Source: Polaromonas sp. (GTDB taxonomy: Bacteria; Pseudomonadota; Gammaproteobacteria; Burkholderiales; Burkholderiaceae_C). Taken from it: a stretch of 44,564 nucleotides of DNA. Location: assembly GCA_021153985.1 (NCBI GenBank), contig JAJKJM010000132.1, positions 1 to 44,564 on the forward strand, read 5' to 3'. This document shows positions 5,211-44,070 of this stretch, one piece after another. The position numbers and the translations under genes were made by a program. The notes beneath the pieces were generated by a model. That model was not told the DNA's origin. It searched no databases and saw only the letters and a list, made by a program, of their open reading frames with translations. Numbering within the stretch: position 1 is the stretch's first letter; each line of letters begins with the position of its first letter.

Positions 5211-6088
5211 GATCCATCGTCGCCGTTGACTGGGGAACATCGTCCCTGCGCGGTGCGCTGCTGGGCGCCGAGGGCGCGGCCATCGAAGAGCGTTCTTTTG
5301 CACGCGGCATCCTGACGGTGCCCGCAGGCGGATTCCCCGACATCTTCCAGACCTGCTTTGGCGACTGGATGACGCCCGGCACGCTGTGCCTCATCTCAGG
5401 CATGGCCGGCAGCAAGCAGGGCTGGCGCGAAGCCGCTTATTGCGCCTGTCCCGCCGGCTTTGACGACATCGCCGCCCACCTGGAGTGGGTGGAGCCCGGC
5501 CGCATCGCCATCGTGCCGGGCCTGAGCATCGACCGCGGCGGCGTACCCGACGTGATGCGCGGCGAGGAAACCCAGATCTTTGGTGCCTTGCAGTTGCTGG
5601 GCCTGGACAACGCCCGCCTGGTGTTGCCCGGCACGCACAGCAAATGGGTCACCGTGACCAACCGCAAGGTGACGGATTTTTCGACCTGGATGACGGGCGA
5701 GTTTTATGCGCTGCTGCGCCAGCACTCGGTGCTCGCGCGCATGATGCCAGAGGCCGATGCCGCACCTGACACGGCGGCTTTCGACCAGGGTGTGGCCCAT
5801 GCGCTGGCCGGCCCGGGTTTGCTGAACACCGCCTTCAGCACACGCACCTTGTCGCTTTTCAACCGCATGGCTACGGATGCCCTGCCCAGCTACCTCTCAG
5901 GCCTGGTCATCGGCGAAGAACTCAAGTCCCAGACCTTGCCGCGCGGCGAGCCCGTCGTGGTGATGGGCGCTGAAGCCCTCACGGCCCGCTACGAACAGGC
6001 GCTTGCCCAGCTCGGCGTGCCCGTCCAGCGCGTGGGCGCGGGCGCCACCTGGCGCGGTTTGCGCGCCATTGCCGACACCTTGGGCTGA
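5207..6088 (+). CDS. dgoK: 2-dehydro-3-deoxygalactonokinase
   Basis: This enzyme phosphorylates 2-keto-3-deoxygalactonate to the 6-phosphate, the second step of the De Ley-Doudoroff pathway. The 293-residue protein has the N-terminal phosphate-1 motif VAVDWGTSSLRGAL of the DgoK family, a GTHSKWV segment in the middle and the late GAGATWRGL near the end. It starts with GTG inside the kdgK stop (GTGA overlap) and is followed after 36 bases by dgoA. With kdgK next to it, the operon can phosphorylate both the gluco- and the galacto-epimers of the keto-deoxy acid. Confidence 0.9.
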   Translation: MRSIVAVDWGTSSLRGALLGAEGAAIEERSFARGILTVPAGGFPDIFQTCFGDWMTPGTLCLISGMAGSKQGWREAAYCACPAGFDDIAAHLEWVEPGRIAIVPGLSIDRGGVPDVMRGEETQIFGALQLLGLDNARLVLPGTHSKWVTVTNRKVTDFSTWMTGEFYALLRQHSVLARMMPEADAAPDTAAFDQGVAHALAGPGLLNTAFSTRTLSLFNRMATDALPSYLSGLVIGEELKSQTLPRGEPVVVMGAEALTARYEQALAQLGVPVQRVGAGATWRGLRAIADTLG

Positions 6089-37803: not shown

Positions 37804-38676
37804 TCAAGCCAGCGCCAATCCCGCCACACCCAGCAACATCAGCGCCGCACCCGCCACCTGCGACGGCTTGAGGGACTCCCTGAGCAGCCGCGCACCCACA
37901 AGAGTGCCTGCCAGCATGGATATCTCGCGCACCGGCGCCACATAACTCAGCGGTGCGGTCTGCACGGCGAACAGCACCAGGCAATAGGCCAGCGGCGACA
38001 GCACGCCGACCAGCACAATCGCCGCACGGTTCTGGCGCCATTGCCCGCGCAGGTCACCGCGACCGCGCAGCGCCCAGGGTGCCAGCAGCACGGTGCGAAA
38101 CACCAGGCCCGCCGCGTAGAACAACACAGGCGCCATGCCCAGCGACTTCACCGCCCAGCCGTCGATCACGGTGTAGCCTGCGATGCACACACCGGTCAGC
38201 CCGCCCCAGAGCACCCCGCGCCATCGCCGCGCCGCATCGTTGCCGGCAGTGAGACCCGCGGAGCCACCCGCCGTCATGAACACACCCGCCAGCACCAGGG
38301 CTACGCCCAGCCAGCCCAAGGCGCTGGGAACCTCGCCCAGCAAGGCCACGGCTCCCAGCACCGCCAGCAGCGGCCCGGTGCCGCGGGCCATGGGGTAGAC
38401 CACCGCGAAGTCGCCGACCCGGTAGCCCTTTTGCAGCACCAGCGAATACACCACGTGCACCAGCGCGCTGGCCAGTGCTGCCAGCCACATCCGGCCGTCA
38501 AACGCCTGTGGCTGCACATGCCACACCGCCAGCGCTACCGGCGCCGCGGCCGCCACGCTGACACAACCGAACAGCCAGACAAACAGGGTGCCACCCGCCG
38601 CCCGCTTGGCCACGACGTTCCACAGGGCGTGGCAGACCGCCCCCGCGAGCACCAGCGCCAGCGTATGGGCGTTCAT
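37804..38676 (-). CDS. EamA/DMT family transporter
   Basis: A 290-residue protein with two EamA repeats and about ten helices (for example ALVLAGAVCHALWNVVAKRAA at the start). Members move amino acids, nucleosides or similar solutes. It starts inside the last codons of the HIT-like gene (ATGA overlap), so the two are cotranscribed. A LysR regulator is divergent from this pair and may control it. Confidence 0.86.
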   Translation of the reverse strand: MNAHTLALVLAGAVCHALWNVVAKRAAGGTLFVWLFGCVSVAAAAPVALAVWHVQPQAFDGRMWLAALASALVHVVYSLVLQKGYRVGDFAVVYPMARGTGPLLAVLGAVALLGEVPSALGWLGVALVLAGVFMTAGGSAGLTAGNDAARRWRGVLWGGLTGVCIAGYTVIDGWAVKSLGMAPVLFYAAGLVFRTVLLAPWALRGRGDLRGQWRQNRAAIVLVGVLSPLAYCLVLFAVQTAPLSYVAPVREISMLAGTLVGARLLRESLKPSQVAGAALMLLGVAGLALA

Positions 38677-39191
38677 GCCGGCGTACCCTCCAGCTCCGGC
38701 AGCCGGAAGCGGCCGTCCAGCAGCACTTTGACGCGTCCCGCAACGGCCTCGCATTCCGCCGTGCTGAGGGGCGCAAACCCTGCCGCCCACGCCTGCATGC
38801 CGGCCCATCCGGGAAATTTGGGCGACTCGCCCCAGCGCCAGTCGGGGTGCGCCGCCTGCCGGCTGCGCCCGAACACATGCAGGTGCACCCGGCGATGCGC
38901 CTGCACGTTCTTGGGCCCCGGCGGCAAAGCCTGGTCATTGAGGGCCCAGTTGCCCGCCTCCCAGTAGTTGAGGCAACCGTCGTGCAGGCCAGGCAACACA
39001 TCCAGCATGGCCCGGCCGGTCGCAGCGACCAGGCAGGACCAGCGTGCCAGCTCCATCGGCGTCAACTCACTGCGCTCCCAGACGGGCCGCGGCGGGTTGA
39101 CAACCAGGTGGCCGCCGTCGAGGCGGTCGCACAGGACCACGTCCGGACGAATCAGGTCGCCGCCGGCGCAGGTATGTAGAACAAGGGGCAT
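38673..39191 (-). CDS. HIT/GalT-like protein with altered His triad
   Basis: A 172-residue protein of the histidine-triad superfamily type. The C-terminal VQAHRRVHLHVFGRS has His103 and His105, but the third triad position is Phe107 instead of His. An extra His99 lies just before. Conserved Trp/Asn stretches (GCLNYWEAGNWALN) form the substrate side. HIT and GalT enzymes act on nucleotidyl bonds, but the changed triad makes the reaction uncertain. AAAGG before the ATG at 39191 supports the start. It is coupled to the EamA transporter and divergent from lysR. Confidence 0.6.
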   Translation of the reverse strand: MPLVLHTCAGGDLIRPDVVLCDRLDGGHLVVNPPRPVWERSELTPMELARWSCLVAATGRAMLDVLPGLHDGCLNYWEAGNWALNDQALPPGPKNVQAHRRVHLHVFGRSRQAAHPDWRWGESPKFPGWAGMQAWAAGFAPLSTAECEAVAGRVKVLLDGRFRLPELEGTPA

Positions 39192-39308
39192 GGTGAGGCC
39201 TTTGGAAAGAAATAATGAGTGAATGTGATCAAGCTGCGATGGAACCATCCTCATAATCAACCAATCTCCCCTATGCCGCGCCTGGATGAATGAGGAAACC
39301 AGTTAGCA

Positions 39309-40256
39309 ATGATGAGTAAATCAGATAGCTCCCCTCCTGGGCCATTGCCACTGAATGCCGTGCGGGTGTTCGTCGAAGCGGCCCGCCAGCTCAACTTCAG
39401 CCGCGCCGGCCGGGTGCTGGGCATGAGCCAGGGTGGGGTCAGCCGCCACATCGCCACACTGGAACGCTATTTCGGCCAGGCCCTGTTCGCGCGCTCCGGC
39501 ACCTCGGTGAGCCTGACAGACGCAGGGCGCCTGTATTTCGACACCGTGCAGGAAGCCCTCTCCACGATAGAACTTGCCACCCGCCAGATGGCGCAAGGCC
39601 AGGACGGCGGCCACCGCCTCATCGTGCGCACCTCGCTGCCCACCTTCGCCATGACAGCCCTGATCCCGGCCTTGCCCGGCTTTCAACCCTCGGGGCCGAT
39701 GGCTGTGGACCTGGTGACCTCGCTGTCTCCGCCAGGCCCCGGCGATGGCTATGACGTGTTGATTACCCGAGACCTGGCCGTCACCGGCGCGGAGCATTGG
39801 CTGCTGGCCACCGAGAACCTGGTGTGCGTGGCGGCCCCGGCGCGCTGCCGCGAATTCGCGTCCCAACCCGTCAGCCGATGGCAGTTCCTGGCAGCGCAGT
39901 CGCGCCCGGACGTGCTGGCCGCGTGGTGCACCCAGCTGGGCCAGCAGGCCGCGGGCATCCAGGTCGCCGCCAGCTTCGACCATTACTTCCTGGCGATTGC
40001 GGCGGCCATAGGCGGCATGGGGCACCTGGTGGTGCCGGAACTGCTGGTGGCGGAGCCATTGCGGCAAGGGCACCTGGTGCGTACCGCGACGGCCACGGTC
40101 CGCGGCGACGCCAGCTACTCGGCCTACATCAACCCGCGCAGCACCGCCCCCGAAGCAAGCCGGGTGTTTTGCAGATGGCTCAAAGGATGGTTCAGGCAAG
40201 CGCTAGAGCCAAAGCCAGAAAGCTCCACGCCGCACGCCTGGCCCGGCCCCGGCTAA
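39309..40256 (+). CDS. LysR family transcriptional regulator
   Basis: A 315-residue activator or repressor of the GcvA-like branch. The N-terminal winged helix has LNAVRVFVEAARQLNFSRAG and GGVSRHIATLERYFGQALF, followed by a substrate-binding domain. It reads away from the HIT-like and EamA genes across 117 bases and probably controls them. Two ATG codons (39309 and 39312) can start it. A very short open frame (39286-39306, six codons) ends two bases before the first of them. Confidence 0.9.
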   Translation: MMSKSDSSPPGPLPLNAVRVFVEAARQLNFSRAGRVLGMSQGGVSRHIATLERYFGQALFARSGTSVSLTDAGRLYFDTVQEALSTIELATRQMAQGQDGGHRLIVRTSLPTFAMTALIPALPGFQPSGPMAVDLVTSLSPPGPGDGYDVLITRDLAVTGAEHWLLATENLVCVAAPARCREFASQPVSRWQFLAAQSRPDVLAAWCTQLGQQAAGIQVAASFDHYFLAIAAAIGGMGHLVVPELLVAEPLRQGHLVRTATATVRGDASYSAYINPRSTAPEASRVFCRWLKGWFRQALEPKPESSTPHAWPGPG

Positions 40257-40292
40257 CCCCAATAGCCGAGGGTGGGCGCATGCAGCCGGCGC

Positions 40293-40394: not shown

Positions 40395-41372
40395 ATGCCG
40401 GTCATCGCAGTCGTTAACCGCAAGGGAGGCAGTGGCAAGAGCACGCTGGCCGCGCACATCGCCGCCTGGTGCGCGCGCAATGGCAGCTCCGTCATGCTGG
40501 GCGACGTGGACCGGCAACAGTCGGCGCGCAGCTGGCTCAAGCGCCGCGCCGCCGAACTCCCCGCCATCGCCCCCTGGGCGGTCGACCAGAAAAACATGCT
40601 GCGCGTGCCCACGGGCATCACCCACGTCGTGCTCGACACGCCCGGCGGCATGCACGGCTTTGAGCTCGCCCGCGTCGTGATGTTTGCCGACGCCATCATC
40701 ATGCCGGTGTGCAACTCCATGTTCGACCGCGAGTCGGCGGCCCAGTGCCATGCCGACCTGATGGCGCTGCCGCGTGTGGCCAGCGGCCGCTGCCGCCTGG
40801 CCACGGTGGGCATGCGCATCGACGGGCGCACCAGCGCCGCCAAAACCCTGGAAGACTGGTCTGAAGAGTTGGGCATGCCGTTTCTGGGCGCCCTGCGCGA
40901 AACGCAGCTTTACGTGCGCAGCCTGGAACGCGGCATGACGATTTTCGACCTGGCCGCCAGCACCGTCACACAAGACCTGCAGCAGTGGCAACCCATCCTC
41001 AATTGGCTAAAGCCCACGCTGTACCCGCCGCAAGCGGCCAATGACGCCCCCGAGCAAACGCCGGTAAAGACAGTCGCCAAGGCCCCGGACCGGGTGATCG
41101 CCCCCCGCCCTTCGGTCGCCGCGACGCTGGGCGCCAGGGCGCTCAACCCGGCGCCTGCCCAAAAGGCCGCTCCGGCGCGCCTGGGTAGCTCCCTGTCCGG
41201 CAGCCTGATGCCGGCGCAGGAATCGATGGTCCACGGCGCCCGCATGTCCTCGCAAAGCACAGCCCGCGCGGTGGGCCGGCCCGTCCAGGTCAGCAGCGCG
41301 CCGGCCATGTCACGCAACGTGAACTCGGGCGACGGCCTGCAGATTCCGCAGTTCCTGAAGCGCGGCGGTTAG
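40395..41372 (+). CDS. Orphan ParA/MipZ-like ATPase with FtsZ-like C-terminal peptide
   Basis: A 325-residue protein. Residues 1-210 form a MinD/ParA ATPase: deviant Walker A NRKGGSGKST (8-17), GDVDRQQSARSW (36-47), DTPGG (81-85), and LRETQLYVRSLERGMTIFDL (167-186). The DVDRQQS and LR...Y.R segments recall MipZ, which positions FtsZ in Caulobacter. Residues 211-312 are a Pro/Ala/Ser-rich linker. The last 13 residues, DGLQIPQFLKRGG, closely resemble the FtsZ tail (D-x-L-x-I-P-x-F-L-[RK]-[KR]). There is no parB nearby. GGAG five bases before the ATG supports the start. A role at the division site is an inference. Confidence 0.82.
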   Translation: MPVIAVVNRKGGSGKSTLAAHIAAWCARNGSSVMLGDVDRQQSARSWLKRRAAELPAIAPWAVDQKNMLRVPTGITHVVLDTPGGMHGFELARVVMFADAIIMPVCNSMFDRESAAQCHADLMALPRVASGRCRLATVGMRIDGRTSAAKTLEDWSEELGMPFLGALRETQLYVRSLERGMTIFDLAASTVTQDLQQWQPILNWLKPTLYPPQAANDAPEQTPVKTVAKAPDRVIAPRPSVAATLGARALNPAPAQKAAPARLGSSLSGSLMPAQESMVHGARMSSQSTARAVGRPVQVSSAPAMSRNVNSGDGLQIPQFLKRGG

Positions 41373-41554: not shown

Positions 41555-42406
41555 TCAGTGACGGCCCCGACGCAACTGGGCCAAGCGCTCGGCCATTGCG
41601 TCAATATCAAGCGCGTCTCCGGCGTTGGCCAGGTAGATTTCGAGGTCGGCCACCGCGCGCTCGGGCTCGCCGTGCGCGGCCCAGGCCAGGCCGCGGTCGC
41701 GGTACTCCGTCCAGGCTTCCGGCTGCAGCACGATCAGGCGGTCCTGCACCGGGATCAGGCGCTGCCAGTCTTCCTGCGTCTTGTGGATTTCTTTGAGGTT
41801 GCGCAGCATGCGGTTGATGATTTCGCGCGGCGCCGCCGACTGCAGGTACAGGCCCATGGGCACCTCGAAGTCCTCTTCCGTGCTGCTGCGCTGCCTGAAG
41901 GGTTCCAGCCGCTCGGACAACTCCTCGCGGCTGAGAGACTGGCCGCTGAAGGGGTCGATGACCACCTGGCCTTTGGGCAGGTTGACCTTGACCATGAAGT
42001 GGCCCGGAAAGGCGACGCCTCGTGCGTTCAGGCCCAGCCCAAGCGCCAGCTCGAGCCACAGCACAGCCAGCGTGATCGGGATGCCGCGGCGCGTGCGCAA
42101 TACGGCGTTCAGGTAGCTGTTGTCGGGGTCGTAGTAATCGTTGACGTTGCCGCCGAAGTTCAGGTCGTGAAAGAAGAACTGGTTGAGCGCGCGCAGCCGC
42201 TGCAGCGCGGGTGCGTCGGCCGGCAGGCGGCGCTTCAGGCGGGCCAGTAGCTGGTCGACATCGCCCAGCACCTGCTGCACATCCAGGTCGGGGTATTCGT
42301 CCTGCGCCAGGCTGACGGCGGCCTCGAGCAGGGGGAAGTGTTCGTCGCTTTCCACCAGGCTGGAAAAGTACTGCAACGGTGACGGCACGGTCAGATTTAA
42401 TTGCAT
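41555..42406 (-). CDS. SirB1 family protein (transglutaminase-like plus TPR)
   Basis: A 283-residue protein of the SirB1/YchA family. The central part FFFHDLNFGGNVNDYYDPDNSYLNAVLRTRRGIPITLAVLWLEL has the characteristic Asn-Ser-Tyr and RRGIPITL pattern of the transglutaminase-like domain. GVAFPGHFMVKV follows and carries a His. The rest is a short TPR-type helical region. The biochemical role is unknown. It is convergent with parA and downstream of murJ on the same strand after a terminator. Confidence 0.82.
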   Translation of the reverse strand: MQLNLTVPSPLQYFSSLVESDEHFPLLEAAVSLAQDEYPDLDVQQVLGDVDQLLARLKRRLPADAPALQRLRALNQFFFHDLNFGGNVNDYYDPDNSYLNAVLRTRRGIPITLAVLWLELALGLGLNARGVAFPGHFMVKVNLPKGQVVIDPFSGQSLSREELSERLEPFRQRSSTEEDFEVPMGLYLQSAAPREIINRMLRNLKEIHKTQEDWQRLIPVQDRLIVLQPEAWTEYRDRGLAWAAHGEPERAVADLEIYLANAGDALDIDAMAERLAQLRRGRH

Positions 42407-42504: not shown

Positions 42505-44070
42505 TCAATGTTTCAGAAGTTTTCTGACCTTTAAACCCGACACCCAGAGCGCTACAAAATAAAGAGCGGCTGACACAAGCAGGACAAGGGCCAGAAGCCC
42601 AATCCGCTCAAAGGAATGGCCTTTGAGGCCGATCCAGTTGACCGCGCCGGCGGCCCACAGCAAAAACACCGCCAGCAATGCGCTGGCCGCCAGCACCTGC
42701 AGCGCAAACACGCCCCAACCGGGTGCGGGCGTGTAACTGCCGCGGCGCTTGAGCCCCCACAGCAGCCACAGCGCATTGATCAGCGCGCCGATGCCGATGG
42801 CCAGCGCCAGCCCGGCATGTTGCAGGAAAGGCACGAGGGCCAGGTTGAGCAACTGCGTGACCGCCAGCACCACGATGGCGATGCGCACCGGGGTCTTGAT
42901 GTCCTGGCTGGCGTAAAAACCCGGCGCCAGCACCTTGATGGCCACCAGTCCCAGCAGCCCGGCGCCGTAGCCCATGAGCGCCGTGGTGGTCTGCTGTACA
43001 TCGCGGTCGCTGAAGGCGCCGTAGTGGTAAAGCGTAGCGACCAGAGGCTGGGCAAACGTCAAAAGCGCCACGCCGCAGGGCACGGCCAGCAACACGACAA
43101 GCCGCAGGCCCCAGTCCAGCATGGCCGAGTATCTGGCGTCGTCACCGGCGGCCTTGGCGGCCGAGAGCTGCGGCATCAGCACCACGCCGATGGCCACGCC
43201 CAGCATGGCGGTCGGGAACTCCATCAGCCGGTCGGCATAGGTGAGCCAGCTGACGCTGCCGGGCGTAAGGTGCGAGGCGATCTGGGTGTTGATCAACAGC
43301 GATATCTGCGCCACGCTGACCCCCAGCAAAGCCGGCACCATCAGCCTGGTGATGTTTTGGCTGGCGGGATCGGCCCAGGCGGCCTTGATGGTGCTCCAGC
43401 GCAAGCCGATGCGCGGCAACAGGCCCAGCCGCGCCAGGGCCGGCACCTGCACCGCCAGCTGCAAAATGCCGCCCAGCATGACGCCCCCGCCCAGCGCATA
43501 GACCGGCTCAATGCCCAGCGTCTTGAACCAGGGCGCGCCCAGCCAGGCCGCCAGGATCATGGCCACGTTGAGCAACACCGGCGTGGCCGCCGGCACGGCA
43601 AAGCGCCGCCAGGTGTTGAGCACGCCGGACGACAACGCCACCAGCGACATGAAACCGATGTAGGGGAACATCCAGCGCGTCATGAACACGGCCGCCTCGA
43701 AGCCACGCGGCTCCTGCTTCAGGCCGCTGGCCATGGCCCAGACCAGCACCGGCGCCGCCGCGACACCGGCGACGCAAGTCAACAACAGCGCCCAGGCCAG
43801 CAGCGTGGCGACCCGGTCAATCAGGACCTTGGTCTGGTCATCCCCGTTTTGCGCCTTGCTGGCCGCCAGAACAGGCACAAACGCCTGGCTGAAAGCCCCC
43901 TCGGCAAACAGCCGGCGAAACAGGTTGGGGATGCGAAACGCCACGTTGAAGGCATCCGTCATGGCACTGGCGCCAAAAGTAGAGGCAATCAGCAGTTCCC
44001 GCACCAAACCGGTGATTCGGGAGACGAGCGTTAAAAGGGATACGGTGGAGGCAGATTTAAAAAGTGACAC
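42505..44070 (-). CDS. murJ: Lipid II flippase MurJ
   Basis: This inner-membrane flippase moves lipid II to the periplasmic face for peptidoglycan synthesis. The 521-residue protein has fourteen predicted helices, the opening MSLFKSASTVSLLTLVSRITG with the family's basic residues, and FGASAMTDAFNVAFRIPNLFRRLFAEGAF, the best-conserved MurJ stretch. RDVQQTTTALMGYG is also typical. It is divergent from rpsT, as is common in this group, and ends at a good terminator. Confidence 0.95.
   Translation of the reverse strand: MSLFKSASTVSLLTLVSRITGLVRELLIASTFGASAMTDAFNVAFRIPNLFRRLFAEGAFSQAFVPVLAASKAQNGDDQTKVLIDRVATLLAWALLLTCVAGVAAAPVLVWAMASGLKQEPRGFEAAVFMTRWMFPYIGFMSLVALSSGVLNTWRRFAVPAATPVLLNVAMILAAWLGAPWFKTLGIEPVYALGGGVMLGGILQLAVQVPALARLGLLPRIGLRWSTIKAAWADPASQNITRLMVPALLGVSVAQISLLINTQIASHLTPGSVSWLTYADRLMEFPTAMLGVAIGVVLMPQLSAAKAAGDDARYSAMLDWGLRLVVLLAVPCGVALLTFAQPLVATLYHYGAFSDRDVQQTTTALMGYGAGLLGLVAIKVLAPGFYASQDIKTPVRIAIVVLAVTQLLNLALVPFLQHAGLALAIGIGALINALWLLWGLKRRGSYTPAPGWGVFALQVLAASALLAVFLLWAAGAVNWIGLKGHSFERIGLLALVLLVSAALYFVALWVSGLKVRKLLKH

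Follow-up and report, generated by a model that had tools for sequence, protein, structure and literature searches.

Among described systems, the nearest to the protein analysed here is ParF of TP228, a small ParA of the plasmid type Ib group whose partner gene adjoins parF and whose solved chains comprise 204–214 residues, with no extension. A second relative, MipZ of the alphaproteobacteria, acts on FtsZ and binds ParB, and orphan ParAs that position a cargo are also known, according to sections of a review of these ATPases (PMC9178275).

The C-terminal peptide of FtsZ has been dissected at the level of single residues in E. coli. Substitution at I374, F377 or L378 disrupts ZipA binding, as stated in passages of one study (PMC8669495). 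Excerpts of another (PMC4117426) indicate that I374 and L378 matter for ZipA, FtsA, MinC and SlmA, that D373E, I374V, A376P, L378V and K380M spare FtsA and ZipA and probably weaken MinC, and that the tail peptide binds ZipA, FtsA and SlmA with affinities of ~20, ~50 and ~81 µM, respectively. ZapD of E. coli needs, in some form, the FtsZ region after R379, including the place of QAD, judging from portions of a third paper (PMC4835091). SlmA, described in the same excerpts as DNA-bound and connected with the FtsZ tail (PMC4117426), resembles our protein only in how the latter might work: SlmA binds the FtsZ tail, whereas our protein carries a look-alike of it.

That protein is encoded on the forward strand at positions 40395–41372 of the window, by which we mean the whole 44,564-nucleotide stretch of DNA that was analysed. 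The genome is of the Polaromonas type (closest relatives Polaromonas sp. YR568, 95%, and JS666 and CF318, both 91%). We tentatively read the protein, with a probability of roughly 0.4, as an orphan ParF-type ParA whose C-terminal peptide mimics the FtsZ tail and so serves as a docking motif for a putative receptor. To our knowledge, many proteins bind the FtsZ tail, and no ParA-type ATPase carrying a copy of it is known. The portions of the open-licence PMC literature covered on FtsZ, Min, MipZ and ParA (journal articles, no preprints) yielded no paper on this ParA, and the Ramlibacter genome paper (PMC3164672), in the passages covered, makes no mention of MipZ, MinD or this ParA.

The ATPase domain and its relatives

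The open reading frame encodes 325 amino acids followed by the stop codon TAG, and its translation starts MPVIAVVNRKGGSGKS and ends DGLQIPQFLKRGG. The ATG at 40395 is the start common to the relatives L001–L024; a longer GTG frame opens at 40272. An AlphaFold2 model built from 26 sequences is mostly confident over residues 1–210 (40395–41024, forward strand), an ordered deviant Walker A ATPase domain with KGGSGKS at residues 10–16, DVDRQQS at 37–43 and LDTPGG at 80–85. The linker that follows, residues 211–316 (41025–41342, forward strand), is predicted to be disordered, with pLDDT below 50 at 216–316, and pLDDT exceeds 50 at residues 317–322, where a three-residue helix is modelled. The FtsZ-like layout that the earlier note had read from the sequence, a short tail on a linker of roughly 100 residues, is also seen in the model, where an ordered ATPase precedes ~100 disordered residues and the tail.

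Residues K10, G11, G12, G14, K15, D37, D39 and D81 are invariant across the 26 sequences, which places the protein in the deviant Walker A family of ParA and MinD. The earlier note had gone further and likened the ATPase to MipZ, a kinship that did not survive closer comparison. Although the Pfam MipZ model scores 54.9 bits, above its cut-off of 20.7, it does so in three stretches, the best of them 3–54 against a profile of 262 positions, so that no full-length profile match was found. A search against sequences of solved structures ranked ParF/TP228 ParA first (4dzz, 9.3e-12; another chain, 1e-11) over residues 1–188, with MipZ at 3.7e-5 over residues 3–56 only. When the model was searched with Foldseek, the matches included ParF, MipZ, Soj and MinD; ParF/TP228 chains took ranks 1–7 (best 4e07, 1.8e-13) and MipZ (2xj4) rank 8. 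Identity with MipZ was therefore rejected, the match being restricted to the Walker region at the N-terminus, with ParF closer by both sequence and fold. Pfam CbiA also exceeds its gathering score, with 48 bits over residues 4–183, and NCBIfam NF041546 (ParA family partition ATPase, ParA_partition) gives 106 bits over residues 3–189, below its cut-off of 180, as does the short ParA paralogue of the same genome with 113.6 bits.

By these rankings, the protein is a ParF-like ParA of the small type that has gained length by an extended C-terminal part. From ParF it differs in that extension of 115 residues, in its chromosomal location and in lying on a contig without parB. With MipZ it shares the deviant Walker ATPase fold and a proposed tie to FtsZ, but MipZ acts on FtsZ, whereas the window's ParA would imitate it; MipZ, as far as we know, has no such tail.

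The 205-residue paralogue, which lies elsewhere in the window's genome (L115, G000:C6:33218), has no extension. Of 399 genomes from the family, 310 contain a match to the long form or the paralogue at an E value of 1e-20 or better. We carried forward matches at 7.3e-63 or better, which come from 59 of the 399 genomes, its own genome counted; the weakest of them, L114 (229 amino acids), has no extension of this kind. At the order level, matches reaching 1e-60 came from 12 of 399 genomes, of which three had also supplied earlier matches. One locus, L075 (G048:C88), holds two ParA copies close together, at 5555 and 7212 on opposite strands, the second of which is 249 amino acids long, ends HIVQAEHA and lacks the tail peptide.

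The C-terminal peptide and the FtsZ tail

The last 13 residues of the protein (313–325, DGLQIPQFLKRGG; 41331–41369, forward strand) contain the core IPQFLKR at 41343–41363. The likeness of these residues to an FtsZ tail, proposed in the earlier note, was confirmed against the FtsZ of the same genome, whose end reads DDFEIPAFLRKQAD (MDDFEIPAFLRKQAD): the two peptides share I, P, F and L, a D at −4 and two basic residues, and each follows a disordered linker. By sequence comparison, the I, F and L correspond to I374, F377 and L378 of E. coli FtsZ, on which binding of the tail depends there, and this agreement supports docking at an FtsZ-tail receptor. The peptides differ in that FtsZ has D or E directly before the I, where 22 of 44 ParA rows have Q, and in that only FtsZ has the terminal QAD; moreover, one is carried by a tubulin-type GTPase and the other by an ATPase. 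The Q before the I and the lack of QAD in the window's tail count against docking at an FtsZ-tail receptor, and convergence on an unrelated receptor can produce a motif of five to seven residues.

To gauge how rare the motif is, we searched the genome (4.5 Mb, 88.9% complete) with a DNA pattern for I-P-x-F-[LF] followed by the first two bases of K, R, S, N, H or Q codons. The pattern occurs at 16 places, and only two of these lie no more than 10 codons before the end of an open reading frame longer than 300 codons, namely those in FtsZ (10 codons from the stop) and in the ParA gene (9 codons); the remaining matches within 23 codons of a stop lie in frames of 16–64 codons. At 65 neighbourhood loci, none of 1784 other open reading frames of at least 120 amino acids, many of them spurious, ended in the motif.

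In a maximum-likelihood tree built on the ATPase domain, with 81 rows (reduced from 86 by entering identical sequences once), two branches separate with support of 91/89 and 91/88 (not starred). The window's branch comprises 45 sequences, counting the duplicate L075b and also L070, which the tree places outside both branches with weak support (81/9). [ILV]Px[FY]L lies within 16 residues of the end in 41 of these 45 related and hence non-independent sequences, and the strict form with K or R in 36; the core is missing from L074, L075b, L077 and L091. Counted by column over 44 rows (L075b left out, two rows gapped at the tail columns), P318 and L321 are each present in 42/42, I/L/V317 and F/Y320 each in 41/42, K/R322 in 37/42 and an acidic D/E313, at −4, in 34/42. 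Across 20 Polaromonas rows, with all pairs pooled and thus non-independent, pN/pS is 0.09 for residues 317–323 (pS 0.75), 0.14 for the ATPase, 0.12 for a motif in the middle of the linker (residues 270–283) and 0.50 for residues 207–312 as a whole, that motif included. The tail peptide is under strong purifying selection in Polaromonas and the linker under much weaker selection, and a pN/pS of 0.09 with a pS of 0.75 means that the tail is held at the protein rather than the DNA level.

A chance tail was rejected because the motif is rare across the genome, is retained over the phylogeny and is under selection at the level of codons. In the window's branch, I/V/L-P-x-F-L-[KR] closes a disordered linker and stays conserved against the drift of that linker; the tail of this orphan ParA is genuine and conserved. 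Comparing the peptide with the FtsZ tail encoded in its own genome is uninformative because that FtsZ tail hardly varies, reading [DE][FLIY][DE]IPAFLR[KR]Q[AV]D in 30 of 30 genomes examined.

The mid-linker motif (SLMPAQESMVHGAR, residues 270–283; 41202–41243, forward strand) interrupts a linker that otherwise drifts. Its consensus is SLMPAQES[LM]V[HQ]G[GAS]R, with P273 in 43/44 rows, G281 in 40/44 and R283 in 39/44, and its pN/pS is as low as that of the ATPase. A sub-branch formed by L072, L076, L089 and L094 has a different linker motif, TRI.SPRVLDRV, and ends IP[SA]FLKLVK[CA], an FtsZ-like core followed by a hydrophobic-basic end.

Two separate conserved motifs in one extension, the second without a recognized FtsZ counterpart, could also be docking sites for a dedicated partner outside division, a cargo or polar hub, on the model of TlpT for PpfA or McdB for McdA; in that case the resemblance to FtsZ would be chance at the level of the receptor. 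Cargo-positioning orphan ParAs, as covered in sections of the review cited above (PMC9178275), offer a precedent. No constant neighbour of the gene resembles a cargo adaptor, however: loci of the window's branch mostly share purM, sirB1 and murJ, and the sister branch, in the same comparison of loci, has no such shared neighbours. A partner may be encoded elsewhere, and we regard this explanation as somewhat improbable. That both motifs are ClpXP degradation signals seems very improbable. The layout is similar to that of E. coli FtsZ, in which portions of one paper (PMC3983244) locate one ClpXP site at the C-terminus (R379, K380) and another ~30 residues away in the linker, compared with a C-terminal KR and a motif ~40 residues upstream here. 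But conservation is strongest at P, L, I and F, beyond the basic pair, whereas ClpXP of E. coli leans on R379/K380, and the linker motif SLMPAQES is unlike the QEQKPVAKVV of FtsZ.

With a conserved FtsZ-like tail on a ParA, a direct link to the division machinery is a real, if putative, possibility, and docking at an FtsZ-tail receptor is the reading that we prefer. By analogy with the ParA family, the ATP-bound dimer would be expected on the nucleoid, holding out two peptides on flexible tethers of ~100 residues. Together these peptides may engage one or several FtsZ-tail receptors by weak but bivalent binding, with FtsA and ZipA as the likeliest candidates and MinC and ZapD as less probable ones, and would either recruit the receptors or compete with FtsZ for them. 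A nucleoid-bound ATPase would thereby be tied to the membrane-side division machinery, beside a normal Min system. FtsA and ZipA are probably favoured over MinC because the ParA tail differs at the positions of D373 and A376, and ZapD is a less likely receptor because it needs residues after R379 and the window's tail has no QAD. The genome encodes homologues of FtsA, ZapD and MinC as candidate receptors, and ZipA matches weakly (28.7 bits, half the model). We infer the DNA binding, the identity of the receptor and the effect on division. If the tail binds FtsA, ZipA or MinC, it would represent a further coupling of nucleoid and division in bacteria that already have Min.

Genomic neighbourhood and Min background

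Convergent with the ParA gene and directly downstream lies a gene for a SirB1-type Transglut_core2/TPR protein (41555–42406, reverse strand), followed by one for the lipid II flippase MurJ (42505–44070, reverse strand). Both are conserved neighbours, found downstream on the opposite strand at 30 of 65 loci, namely 27 of 30 in the window's branch plus L081, L082 and L084, and purM lies upstream at 27 of the 65; these 65 include the same genome twice in some cases (for example, L019/L064, L020/L063 and L024/L060, as their identical tails and contigs of equal length indicate). Within L001–L018, purM is present in 18/18 and SirB1 in 17/18 (L015 ends early), with MurJ beyond reach in some. Across the 65 loci, the rest of the sister branch showed no shared neighbours of weight, the only cluster that includes it being a small one of four loci with an ABC-transporter ATPase, and no fts or min gene was found among the shared neighbours of ParA. 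As evidence for function the neighbourhood is weak: murJ has to do with the cell wall, but neither purM nor sirB1 belongs to the division genes.

The neighbourhood shared within the window's branch shows that the ParA gene is an old chromosomal resident. In agreement with the earlier note, which had seen no parB nearby, ParB_N is absent from the window's contig, and three ParB_N domains lie on other contigs of the genome; a search of the contig for ParB_N thus found no adjacent gene for a centromere-binding partner, as in a ParAB pair. A partition gene of a plasmid or mobile element was rejected on the conserved chromosomal neighbourhood and the contig without ParB. MinE and MinC domains were found in the genome, and a stand-in for a missing Min system was rejected for that reason.

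Between the purM/MFS genes and ParA, positions 37804–40256 hold an EamA transporter, an unassigned open reading frame of 195 amino acids that overlaps it and a LysR regulator. These genes are present in the window, L002, L003 and L057; tblastn did not find them in the flanking sequence examined at other Polaromonas loci.

Sister-branch tails and membrane anchors

The sister branch was compared over 31 rows, with L113 and L114 left out for their very long branches (ATPase identity 49% and 46%) and with L115, L023 and L025 as the outgroup. The core occurs there in its strict form in 3 of 31 rows and in a loose form in 8, and all eight sister-branch genomes examined have the same FtsZ tail, though the peptide is mostly lost from the ParA of this branch, which tells against a simple reading of the tail as an FtsZ mimic. 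The check put forward in the earlier note, a terminal peptide that stays conserved while the linker varies, therefore came out positive within the window's branch and negative in its sister.

What stands at the sister-branch ends is different in composition. Trp occurs in the last 20 residues of 24/31 rows, compared with 0/45 in the window's branch, and a helix-plus-charge score of at least 1.34 is reached by 24/31 compared with 4/45; 18/31 sister-branch rows have both, and examples of these tails are RRGGWLDWLALPRLFQR, RRGAWWQDLLSLPRFLQRNP and RIGRWLEVLSLKRAR. The window's own tail scores 0.83 against the threshold of 1.34, on a score that is driven by net charge (median +4 in the sister branch, +2 in the window's branch). 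Compared with shuffles of a tail's own letters, the helical moment gives z above 1.64 in only 5/31 and 8/45 rows, respectively, and the best-window moment reaches 0.4 in 3/31 and 2/45. Low moments and a charge-driven score leave true amphipathicity unsupported in either branch, and a firm reading of the sister-branch ends as amphipathic helices was rejected on the shuffle control. In composition, the sister-branch ends are membrane-anchor-like, Trp-rich and basic, and not clearly amphipathic.

These ends raise the possibility that the window's tail itself targets the membrane, as in MinD, or is what has remained, in shortened form, of a sequence that did, with its FtsZ likeness due to convergence; in its wider form, the claim is that throughout the family the ATPase reaches the inner membrane by means of its C-terminus. 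The anchor of MinD also ends in a basic-hydrophobic run, and the Trp- and Arg-rich ends of the sister branch (such as RRGGWLDWLALPRLFQR and RIGRWLEVLSLKRAR) are comparable to its membrane-targeting helix in composition. Sequences with mixed ends point the same way: L083 combines the core with Trp, and in L081, L082 and L084, which have the window-type neighbourhood, a Leu-rich stretch precedes the core (for example, RGGLLEALG-IPSFLRRK), with a low moment of 0.08–0.10. So do relatives in another family, which end RFLGSLLKRK and RFLSGLLKRKTG. However, the tail of the window's branch is short and has no Trp, an acidic residue stands at −4 in most rows and the proline is never replaced, while the sister-branch score owes its height to charge rather than to helical moment. 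The MinD-like composition is absent from the window's branch, and the window's genome has its own MinE and MinC. We judge membrane targeting by the window's tail to be unlikely.

We also classed 78 rows by tail, calling a row anchor-like if it has Trp or reaches the score: 37 have the core alone, 27 are anchor-like alone, 8 are both and 6 are neither. On the tree, this distribution takes at least six changes for the core and at least seven for the anchor-like state. The eight rows with both comprise four from the window's branch, by score alone, together with L083, L081, L082 and L084. It is conceivable, although we hold it to be improbable, that a single orphan ParA family of the Burkholderiales uses its C-terminus interchangeably, as a membrane anchor in one branch and as a mimic of the FtsZ tail in the other. 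The two can be reconciled because the FtsZ tail itself works through the membrane-bound FtsA and ZipA, through which the mimic would reach the same membrane-side place. If so, the family may be a case of a docking peptide and a membrane anchor replacing each other in evolution, and it would put a nucleoid-bound ATPase into the FtsZ receptor network, as a second system for positioning or for coupling nucleoid and membrane beside MinCDE.

Taken together, this orphan ParA family tends towards a basic-hydrophobic C-terminal peptide, which resembles the FtsZ tail in some lineages and an anchor in others. Of nine further tails from outside the taxonomic family, five have PxFL[RQ] (APAFLRS, TPAFLRA, TPAFLRAS, IPRFLQR and VPRFLRP), three are basic-hydrophobic without it and one is neither; the ends APAFLRS, TPAFLRA and TPAFLRAS come from relatives that are more distant and belong to a different family within the order.
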